Shown one piece after another: positions 1 to 3,067 of a stretch of 60,444 bases of DNA; the stretch's first letter is position 1, and each line of letters begins with the position of its first letter. The DNA comes from Nitrososphaerota archaeon. GTDB lineage: Archaea; Thermoproteota; Bathyarchaeia; Bathyarchaeales; Bathycorpusculaceae. The notes below the pieces were generated by a model. It made no database searches. It worked only from the letters and a program-made list of their open reading frames with translations, and was not told the origin of the DNA. Location of the stretch: assembly GCA_031256395.1 (NCBI GenBank), contig JAIRQQ010000070.1, positions 1 through 60,444 of the forward strand. Reading direction: 5' to 3'. Made by a program: the position numbers and the translations under genes.

Positions 1-3000
1 AGCCAGCAAAAGTATACCCAGGTCGGGTAGGCACAACACCAGACACAGTCACAGAAGCACCCGGTGCGTACTGAGTACTATCAACTGGAGCACCAACACC
101 ACCAGCAACATCATAAACCACAACAAAAGTTGGAATTGGGGTCCACTGAGCAACCAAAGTAACACCTGTGCTAGGCATTACAAACGAGTCACCACCAAAA
201 TAGATAACTCCGTTATAGAGCCAGCCAGCAAAAGTATACCCAGATAATTGAGGTTCATTACTAGATACAGTTACGGTGGCACCAGCAACATACTGGTTAT
301 TATCAACTGGAGCACCAACACCACCAGCAACATCATATATTACAAAATGAGGCACGCTCAGAGGAGCAATAATTCTTGTATCAAGCAGTGCATCACAACC
401 AGAACAATAGATACCCATCAAACCCTCAGCATCAACAGTCGCAGCAGTAATCACAGCCTCATAAGTACCACCAACATGATTAGCAGAATCTTTGGCTATC
501 ACCTCAGTATAACTATCACCACACAAAGAACAAGTATAAGTCCTCAAACCCGTCTCAGCACAAGTCGCAACCTTAGTCACAACACCAACATAATCATGAA
601 CACAAGTTGTAGAAATTACAGTTATTGTGCCTTGGTCAATTGTATAATGTTCAAGTTTTGCGTTGTGTTCAATACCGTCAAGTCCTGCGTTGAAATAACC
701 AAGAGTTAAACCGTTGATAGCACCAGCAGGTGCGCCCTCATTAATTTTAAATTTAATAGTAAACAAGATGTTACCAGTTGACACATCAACACCAGTAGGA
801 GAGGTAGCAGTTACAGTAACCTGCCCAGTGTTAGTCATTACATAAAAGTTTGAAGAAATAATATTACCAGGATCACAGCCAACATAGGTAAGCGTGTTAG
901 GATACTGCATTGTTAGACAGAAAGATGCAATCCCTGGATTATTTTCTAATGATACAGTCAAAGTTATCTCATCAGATGCATAGCCCGAAGCACTAGATAC
1001 GCTAACAGTAGGGTCGGTTAGGTCAAATGCGGCAAACATGACCATTTGAGCACCAGTTGGTTCCATCTTTGGTCCAAGTGGGCTTGGGTCAACATTCCAG
1101 ATATAGCGCAATAGGCGGGTAACATCAAGCATATTGATAACTCCATCGCCATTGACATCAGCATTTGCCGCCACAAAATTTGTTGATGAAGAATCAACGT
1201 TCCAGATATAGCGCAATAGGCGGGTAACATCAAGCATATTGATGGCATCATCACCGTTAACGTCACCATAAACTGCGTTTTTAACAGTAATTACGGGTTG
1301 TGTGGCAATTGGGTATTGGTATAGGTGTTCGTTGTGTTCGATTCCGTCACGATTTACGTTATAATATCCCAGGCTAAGTCCGCTAAGTTCGTCAATGATA
1401 CAATCATCTATTGCATCGTTGATTTTGAATGTGAGACCGAACAAGACTCTGCCAGAGGATACATCAGTGCCCATAGGAGAGGTAGCAGTTACAGTGATCT
1501 GCCCAGCAATTGTTGTGTCTGCATTAAAGTTTGAGGTGAAATCGCCTACAACTGGAGAAACGTAGGTAAGTGTGTCGGGGTAGCGCATGGTTATAGAATA
1601 TGATGCGATTCCAGGGTTATTTTCTATGGAAACAGTGAGTGTTACTTCCTCACCTGCTCTACCTGTTGCGCTGGTCACATGAACGCTTGTAGAAGATGAC
1701 CACTGAGCAACCAAAGTAACATTACAATTAGGCATCACAAACGAGTCACCATATGCATATGTGACACCTTCATAGAGCCAGCCAGCAAAAGTATACCCAG
1801 TCTTTGTCGGGACAACGTTTGATATTGGTACTGAAATACCTTGTTTATATTGACCCCCAATTGGGTTGCCAACACCACCAGCGACATCATAATTTAGGAG
1901 ACAGCCAGTAGCATCAAGAACGGTATAGCTAAGTTCCTCGCCACAGACAGAGCAGGTTACCTTAATGTAGCCATCCTCAGTATCAGTGGCATTAACAATT
2001 TCTGTAACTTCTGTATGGCCAAGTGCTGTACCCTTAGTCTCTTTTACATAATGGAGATCGCATTTAACGCAGGTATAGGTCCAGCACTCATTTGCCACGC
2101 AGGTTGGGTCTGTATGTACGCCATCATCGTTTTCCCACTCATGATAAAAAGAGCCTCCACCGCCAGTGCAGGGGATACGCAGTATCAATCCCTCGGGGAC
2201 TTCGTTGACATCGGTAATCTCATTTAGTGCAACTATGGCAGCCACCATTGCACTTGTGCTAGGAATTGAAGAGCCGGGTTTGTAATACTTGGCAGCTATA
2301 ATCCACAGGTCATCTGCTGGCATCACGGTATGTGTGAGTCCTTTCCAGTCGCCTATACCGTTGCTATATAATTTTCCTGCTTCGGGTTCGCCCAAGATTT
2401 CGGAAACTGTTACTAAATCATAGCCATTTGCAATCAAAGCGGGTATAACTAGTTCCATAGCGTCCACAGTTGATGCATATATGTCATGGCAGAGAATAAT
2501 TGTGCCATCTTTGGCGTTGCTCATAATTTGGTTATAGATAGAGGTTGCATTTAGAGTTCTCCAGTCATCAGAGTCAAGGGCGCAGAGTATGATTGCGAGG
2601 CCCATATCTTCTGCAGTGCTCATAACATTATCATTATATGCAAGATATGGAGGGCGGAACATGTCAGGGTAAACACCTGTTGCACTAAAAATAGCGTTAT
2701 TTGTACGTTCCAAGTCTTGTTTAAGTGCAGCAGGTGTAAGGGTTGTGTAATCGTCATGATTCCATGAGTGCCCAAAAACGTCACATCCCTGCGCAATGGC
2801 TCTTGCCGCTACAGCTTGATATTGACTCATTCGGGAGCCAAGAACGAAAAAGGTTGCTTTGGCATCATTATTTGCACTCAATATGTCCAATAATCGGCCT
2901 GTGTTTTCACTAGGTCCATCATCAAAGGTTAGTGCAATCATTTTATTATTAGAAACTTGAGCAGATGTGACTGCTACATCAGGAATAACACTCCAAACAA

Positions 3001-3067
3001 ATGTTAATCCTAATAACATGCATAGAAATATACTCATAAAACGTTTTTTAACTAGTTTATTCAACAT
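1..3067 (-). CDS. Secreted modular polysaccharide deacetylase (NodB/CE4) with LysM-like, cohesin-like, dockerin, CxxC and InlB-type repeat modules; C-terminus beyond left edge
   Basis: Manual translation from ATG at 3065-3067 (minus) stays in one frame to position 1: MLNKLVKKRFMSIFLCMLLGLTFVWS (signal), TFDDGPSENT, HSWNHDD, RPPYL, ILCHD (NodB motifs), DVNGDGVINMLDVTRLLRYIW (dockerin), GYTFAGWLYNG (InlB-type repeat). Not in the ORF track because no stop lies within the window. Confidence 0.9.
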   Translation of the reverse strand, partial: MLNKLVKKRFMSIFLCMLLGLTFVWSVIPDVAVTSAQVSNNKMIALTFDDGPSENTGRLLDILSANNDAKATFFVLGSRMSQYQAVAARAIAQGCDVFGHSWNHDDYTTLTPAALKQDLERTNNAIFSATGVYPDMFRPPYLAYNDNVMSTAEDMGLAIILCALDSDDWRTLNATSIYNQIMSNAKDGTIILCHDIYASTVDAMELVIPALIANGYDLVTVSEILGEPEAGKLYSNGIGDWKGLTHTVMPADDLWIIAAKYYKPGSSIPSTSAMVAAIVALNEITDVNEVPEGLILRIPCTGGGGSFYHEWENDDGVHTDPTCVANECWTYTCVKCDLHYVKETKGTALGHTEVTEIVNATDTEDGYIKVTCSVCGEELSYTVLDATGCLLNYDVAGGVGNPIGGQYKQGISVPISNVVPTKTGYTFAGWLYEGVTYAYGDSFVMPNCNVTLVAQWSSSTSVHVTSATGRAGEEVTLTVSIENNPGIASYSITMRYPDTLTYVSPVVGDFTSNFNADTTIAGQITVTATSPMGTDVSSGRVLFGLTFKINDAIDDCIIDELSGLSLGYYNVNRDGIEHNEHLYQYPIATQPVITVKNAVYGDVNGDDAINMLDVTRLLRYIWNVDSSSTNFVAANADVNGDGVINMLDVTRLLRYIWNVDPSPLGPKMEPTGAQMVMFAAFDLTDPTVSVSSASGYASDEITLTVSLENNPGIASFCLTMQYPNTLTYVGCDPGNIISSNFYVMTNTGQVTVTATSPTGVDVSTGNILFTIKFKINEGAPAGAINGLTLGYFNAGLDGIEHNAKLEHYTIDQGTITVISTTCVHDYVGVVTKVATCAETGLRTYTCSLCGDSYTEVIAKDSANHVGGTYEAVITAATVDAEGLMGIYCSGCDALLDTRIIAPLSVPHFVIYDVAGGVGAPVDNNQYVAGATVTVSSNEPQLSGYTFAGWLYNGVIYFGGDSFVMPSTGVTLVAQWTPIPTFVVVYDVAGGVGAPVDSTQYAPGASVTVSGVVPTRPGYTFAG
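1075..1270 (-). other. Dockerin type I domain (two Ca-binding repeats)
   Basis: GDVNGDDAINMLDVTRLLRYIWNVDSSSTNFVAANADVNGDGVINMLDVTRLLRYIWNVDPS. Confidence 0.88.
1095..1243 (-). repeat. 44-bp exact direct repeat within the dockerin coding region, 105 bp spacing
   Basis: ttccagatatagcgcaataggcgggtaacatcaagcatattgat at 1095 and 1200. Confidence 0.9.

Follow-up and report, generated by a model that had tools for sequence, protein, structure and literature searches.

The locus and its host

The window, i.e. the whole stretch of 60,444 nucleotides that was analysed, opens with a partial coding sequence on the minus strand (2..3067) for a large NodB-LysM-cohesin-dockerin-cohesin surface protein. 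The frame is open from an ATG at 3067 to base 1, giving 1022 codons (1035 codons if counted from an upstream GTG), in line with the uninterrupted minus-strand frame of more than 1000 codons announced in an earlier note on this DNA, and it runs past the edge of the source sequence. Base 1 of the window is the end of contig C36 in its own assembly, so the 3' end of the gene and the C-terminus of the protein are missing. A continuation of the truncated gene was sought in the same genome, which is 90% complete, and none of its contigs carries it on.

The archaeal assignment made in the note holds. Other translations from the same contig resemble what we take to be a thermosome and further archaeal genes, and the named close relatives of the protein belong to Candidatus Bathycorpusculum, namely L040 from isolate Emb289P3bin80 (91%) and L041 from B. 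grumuli (54%). This genus unites termite-gut Bathyarchaeia with members found in peat soils, sediments and digesters (PMC10684969).

Domain organization of the window protein

The protein starts with a signal peptide (2960..3067, minus strand as for all features below; residues 1-36) whose hydrophobic core spans residues 10-28, with a hydropathy of 2.3 over 19 residues. It is followed by the NodB/CE4 catalytic domain (2393..2950, residues 40-225), identified by Pfam (Polysacc_deac_1, 1.4e-32), by the positions of its motifs and by PDB matches to CE4 enzymes. The next domain is a LysM with about 10 inserted residues (2171..2332, residues 246-299). The window copy scores 12.5 bits against a cut-off of 20.9 (E=0.15), whereas orthologs exceed the cut-off at the same place (L064, 1.6e-4; L075, 3.6e-5; L041, 2.7e-19 with two copies). 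In a further ortholog, L068, four LysM copies are matched at 1.5e-60, likewise over the cut-off.

A first segment of Cys-x2-Cys repeats (1904..2155, residues about 305-388), recognized from the sequence and from reference matches in orthologs, precedes the first InlB/List_Bact (Flg_new) repeat (1703..1894, residues 392-455). The central cassette consists of a first cohesin (1298..1687, residues about 461-590), a type I dockerin (1088..1276, residues 598-660) and a second cohesin (632..1015, residues about 685-812). The two cohesins match PF00963 at 52.4 and 42.1 bits (cut-off 24.1; Cohesin 1.9e-22 for the two copies). The dockerin, also supported by alignment, matches PF00404 at 56.8 bits (cut-off 22.9; Dockerin_1 1.2e-13) and contains two calcium-binding loops of the type DxNxDxxxNxxD, DVNGDDAINMLD and DVNGDGVINMLD, each followed by identical helices. 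A second segment of Cys-x2-Cys repeats (353..619, residues about 817-905), read from the sequence, leads to InlB/List_Bact repeats 2 and 3 (2..343, residues 909-1022), the latter cut by the contig end. The three Flg_new/InlB copies reach 5.4e-17 and, like the Polysacc_deac_1, cohesin and dockerin matches, are over the Pfam cut-offs. About four fifths of the portion of the protein encoded in the window is non-catalytic.

The signal peptide, the NodB motifs, the two cohesin-like domains, the dockerin and the at least three InlB-type repeats that the earlier note had read were thus recovered, and its LysM-like segment was corroborated through the orthologs. The Cys-x2-Cys repeats were absent from its list of domains. 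They correspond to no Pfam family and occur in archaeal and clostridial surface proteins, here in the window (353-619, 1904-2155), in L041 and in L166, L168 and L169; they could possibly form a metal site.

The deacetylase domain

The CE4 family is defined by the motifs TFDD, H(S/T)xxH, RxPY, DxxD(W/Y) and I(V/I)LxHD (PMC5855634). All five are intact in the window protein, as TFDD (47-50), HSWNH (100-104), RPPY (138-141), DSDDW (165-169) and IILCHD (190-195), and the match to PF01522 (112.7 bits against a cut-off of 23.1) places the domain in CE4 (NodB homology domain). Neither of the two equivalog models reaches its cut-off, the NodB model TIGR04243 scoring 90.6 bits against 240 (E 8.8e-26) and the PgdA model NF045820 scoring 126.6 bits against 800. 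Deacetylases of the MurNAc type and of the poly-beta-1,6-GlcNAc type are both disfavoured on motifs and, because these other types are eliminated, beta-1,4-GlcNAc is the most likely substrate. The protein is a large surface enzyme that probably removes acetyl groups from a chitin-like polymer. AlphaFold2 models built from three-row alignments had a mean pLDDT of 39 for NodB-LysM and 30 for cohesin-dockerin-cohesin.

Full-length relatives and their gene neighbourhood

The missing C-terminus can be appreciated from relatives. The complete protein L041 comprises about 1290 residues. From its signal peptide it runs through NodB, LysM, Cys repeats and the cohesin-dockerin-cohesin cassette to further Cys repeats, another LysM, a Gly-Ser linker and, at the C-terminus, a membrane helix and its basic tail. 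L064 carries NodB, LysM and seven InlB repeats without the cassette, and ends with a helix of the same kind. In the nearest relative, the last 26 bases of contig C113 (L040) are the first of contig C35 (L116, reversed), which continues with Cys repeats, InlB repeats, a linker, a membrane helix and a GT2 gene; L040 and L116 are presumably one gene split at a repeat. Each of L041, L064 and the tail part L116 has such a C-terminal membrane helix.

In these same three cases, a processive GT2 is encoded by the next gene, which starts 12-16 nt past the stop codon of NodB. This enzyme matches GT2 families, with hyaluronan synthase as best relative of solved structure (1.4e-25), and its best NCBIfam models are PgaC_IcaA and NodC, at 151-165 bits, far below the cut-offs of 550 (NodC) and 422 (PgaC). 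A GT2 domain, a QxxRW motif in the form QQ(I/L)RW and several membrane helices, as judged from the sequence, make it a NodC/PgaC-like processive GT2. The genus contains 11 NodB genes of this family. For six of them, such a GT2 lies no more than about 5 kb away. Four others, the window's own among them, are cut off on their 3' side by the end of the contig, and no such GT2 was found near the remaining one, a divergent gene without LysM. The five genomes with the six linked genes contain 1-3 such GT2 each in roughly 2 Mb, so that the chance of each linkage arising at random is low, about 1.5% or less by our estimate (3 genes x 10 kb / 2 Mb). The assembly lacks a GT2 next to the window's own copy, and the best GT2 of this genome is 44% identical and lies on another contig; from the relatives, we infer that such a gene would follow here as well.

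Other arrangements were observed. NodB-LysM genes of G010, G001 and G024:C70 lie near a nucleotide-sugar dehydrogenase and a second GT2 subfamily, with another CE4 also nearby in G010 and G001. NodB-LysM proteins without the cassette (L076, L077, L145) have the same kind of gene neighbourhood. In addition, GH18-LysM and alginate-lyase-LysM proteins adjoin GT2 genes of the same family, which fits a turnover of the surface polymer.

Distribution of LysM and of the cassette

The earlier note considered this combination of domains unusual, and the survey agrees. Of 260 Bathyarchaeia genomes, 12 have a LysM match, 11 of them from this genus and one from the family (10 of 14 control genomes were matched, all ten bacteria). 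The full cohesin-dockerin-cohesin cassette was matched in five of the 260, all five in the genus. Cohesins and dockerins are not mentioned in the published accounts of these archaea that were consulted, nor is LysM in part of them, and a literature search on archaeal LysM deacetylases and archaeal poly-GlcNAc returned nothing relevant.

Besides the NodB proteins, the cassette is carried by a lipase (L067), two MACPF proteins, one GLUG-repeat protein and one unknown protein. The NodB and lipase cassette proteins end with a membrane helix, which is absent from the MACPF, GLUG and unknown ones; with this difference, the anchored members could hold the secreted ones, provided that the cohesins bind the dockerins. 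The lipase protein (L067:1554-6740, G012:C12) is membrane-anchored and combines a class 3 lipase, the cassette and six InlB repeats. The two MACPF proteins (L065:8758-13272 and L066:4183-8658, on G028:C2 and G024:C17) are secreted and join the cassette to a perforin-type domain just over the cut-off (2.2e-5 and 6e-5). A cellulosome, which would call for a scaffoldin of many cohesins and for numerous glycoside hydrolases bearing dockerins, is rejected for the window's own genome, which at its 90% completeness contains two cohesins, those of the window, and two dockerins only; the other dockerin belongs to a protein that matches PHP weakly.

Origin of the parts

A tree of 72 CE4 domains unites the 11 Bathycorpusculum NodB proteins in a single group (99/99). 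The group lies among clostridial CE4, joined to two clostridial sequences with a support of 87/96, and is separate from the remaining Bathyarchaeia CE4 in the sample. The tree includes only Clostridia, picked by similarity, and Bathyarchaeia and thus does not fix the donor phylum. The best clostridial matches reach about 205-220 bits against at most 50 for Bathyarchaeia outside this gene family. Cohesin-dockerin-cohesin with similar Cys repeats is also found in Clostridia. Given this grouping and the clostridial occurrence of the cassette, the parts look acquired from bacteria.

A putative surface polymer pathway

The reading that we favour, with a probability of about 55%, is that a NodB-NodC-like pair makes and deacetylates a beta-GlcNAc polymer of the archaeon itself. 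The deacetylase would be exported and, as in its relatives, held in the membrane of the archaeon by a helix at its C-terminus, with the catalytic head outside. The processive GT2 from the next gene would make a beta-linked GlcNAc polymer and deliver it to the deacetylase, whose CE4 domain would take acetyl groups off the beta-linked GlcNAc in the polymer, following the NodC/NodB logic. LysM would keep the polymer chain in place, and the cassette would link copies of the protein mutually, or to other secreted cassette proteins, on the cell surface. The polymer may be made by the archaeon itself because the next gene of the sister species encodes a chitin-synthase-like enzyme. If true, a GlcNAc-polymer synthase and a deacetylase would give an uncultured lineage of archaea a defined pathway for a surface polysaccharide, in the form of a testable NodB-GT2 gene pair. 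The deacetylase also gathers bacterial wall-type modules (CE4, LysM, InlB, cohesin, dockerin) in one archaeal protein whose catalytic part has its nearest sampled relatives in Clostridia. A more elaborate version, in which a chitin-like, partly deacetylated (chitosan-like) surface polymer of the archaeon results from a NodBC-type pair, the deacetylase comes from gut Clostridia and a single cassette lattice on the cell includes this enzyme together with the lipase and MACPF-type proteins, is rather unlikely.

It is possible, although we consider it somewhat unlikely, that the enzyme instead acts on outside material of the termite gut, i.e. chitin of insects or fungi or murein of bacteria, to which LysM and the cassette would bring it for defence or for foraging of a chitinolytic or cellulosome-like kind. 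LysM binds chitin and murein, and the CE4 relatives include the murein deacetylases PgdA and PdaC. The window's own genome encodes a GH18-InlB-LysM protein away from GT2, such material could also be the target of the GH18 and alginate-lyase relatives, and the cassette is also found on lipase and MACPF proteins. However, every LysM-type NodB gene with a readable flank is in an operon-like arrangement with, or close to, a NodC/PgaC-like synthase, and the proteins are anchored in the membrane rather than released. The earlier note had judged the substrate probably external, with a surface glycan as its other option. Since the synthase lies in an apparent operon with the deacetylase gene in relatives, the first proposal is not favoured and the second is preferred, as a glycan of the beta-GlcNAc type.

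The large non-catalytic portion and the presence of the cassette on five more proteins (lipase, two MACPF, GLUG and one unknown) whose N-terminal parts are unrelated would also suit a protein that is mainly a surface scaffold or adhesin made of cohesins, dockerin and InlB repeats, with the deacetylase as an accessory head. This is improbable: the CE4 motifs are intact, and the cassette-free L076, L077 and L145 occur in the same kind of neighbourhood.

An assembly artefact joining a bacterial fragment onto an archaeal contig, as the greater proximity of NodB to Clostridia than to other Bathyarchaeia and the position at a contig edge might suggest, is hardly credible given the same architecture in two other Bathycorpusculum MAGs, NodB genes of the same family in nine genomes of the genus and a cassette contig in G028 whose translations resemble what we take to be archaeal cobamide genes. 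Likewise, the chimera or frameshift within 1-3067 that the earlier note had named as a possible refutation is disfavoured by the same domain order in L040 (91%) and L041 (54%), which come from other, independent MAGs.

Comparison with known systems

The favoured NodB-NodC-like pair resembles rhizobial NodB-NodC in that a CE4 deacetylase stands beside a processive GT2 for which NodC is among the two best models. It differs in its scores, which are far below the cut-offs, in that no NodA was seen and in a deacetylase that appears exported and anchored in the membrane and carries LysM and cohesin-dockerin-cohesin in the same chain. The PNAG systems PgaC-PgaB and IcaA-IcaB similarly combine the synthase of a surface GlcNAc polymer with a CE4, PgaC_IcaA being the other best GT2 model. 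The Gram-positive GlcNAc/MurNAc deacetylases PgdA and PdaC share the CE4 domain with close sequence matches (2c1g, 6h8l), but the host here is an archaeon and the architecture and gene neighbours are different.

In ANME archaea, scaffoldin-like proteins that combine a dockerin with as many as five cohesins have been reported (PMC9012536). As in these and in cellulosome scaffoldins, cohesins and dockerin are found in one protein; in contrast, it is here a catalytic protein, two cohesins surround one dockerin and the cassette is common to unlike surface proteins. Large clostridial surface proteins display the same cassette order and similar Cys repeats, but their sequences resemble the cassette model only distantly, at 55-80 bits for the best, and no NodB was found in the clostridial cassette proteins examined. 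The modules and the logic are each known already, from NodB-NodC, PgaC-PgaB and archaeal cohesin-dockerin proteins, and it is their combination that is new.

Other LysM, cohesin and dockerin loci of the genus

The GH18-InlB-LysM protein of the window's own genome (L070:3162-4697, G000:C126) contains one InlB repeat and a clear LysM (1.7e-17) and is not beside a GT2. Alginate-lyase-2 (PL7-type) proteins that carry either one LysM or two were found at L077:4268-6325, L123:3448-5598, L139:445-2544, L142:1343-3277 and L145:3817-5853, several of them adjoining dehydrogenase-GT2 genes. Genes for a nucleotide-sugar dehydrogenase, a processive GT2 and a second CE4 form a conserved run in L076, L077, L117, L119 and L132, and also in G007, a genome with no LysM match. 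Cohesin/dockerin gene clusters of another kind occur in other genomes of the genus (G003:C37, G011:C8, G025:C40). Finally, the LysM match of L143:2353-3846 (G028:C86) lies within a run of ORFs whose translations we take to be phage-tail or contractile-injection baseplate genes.
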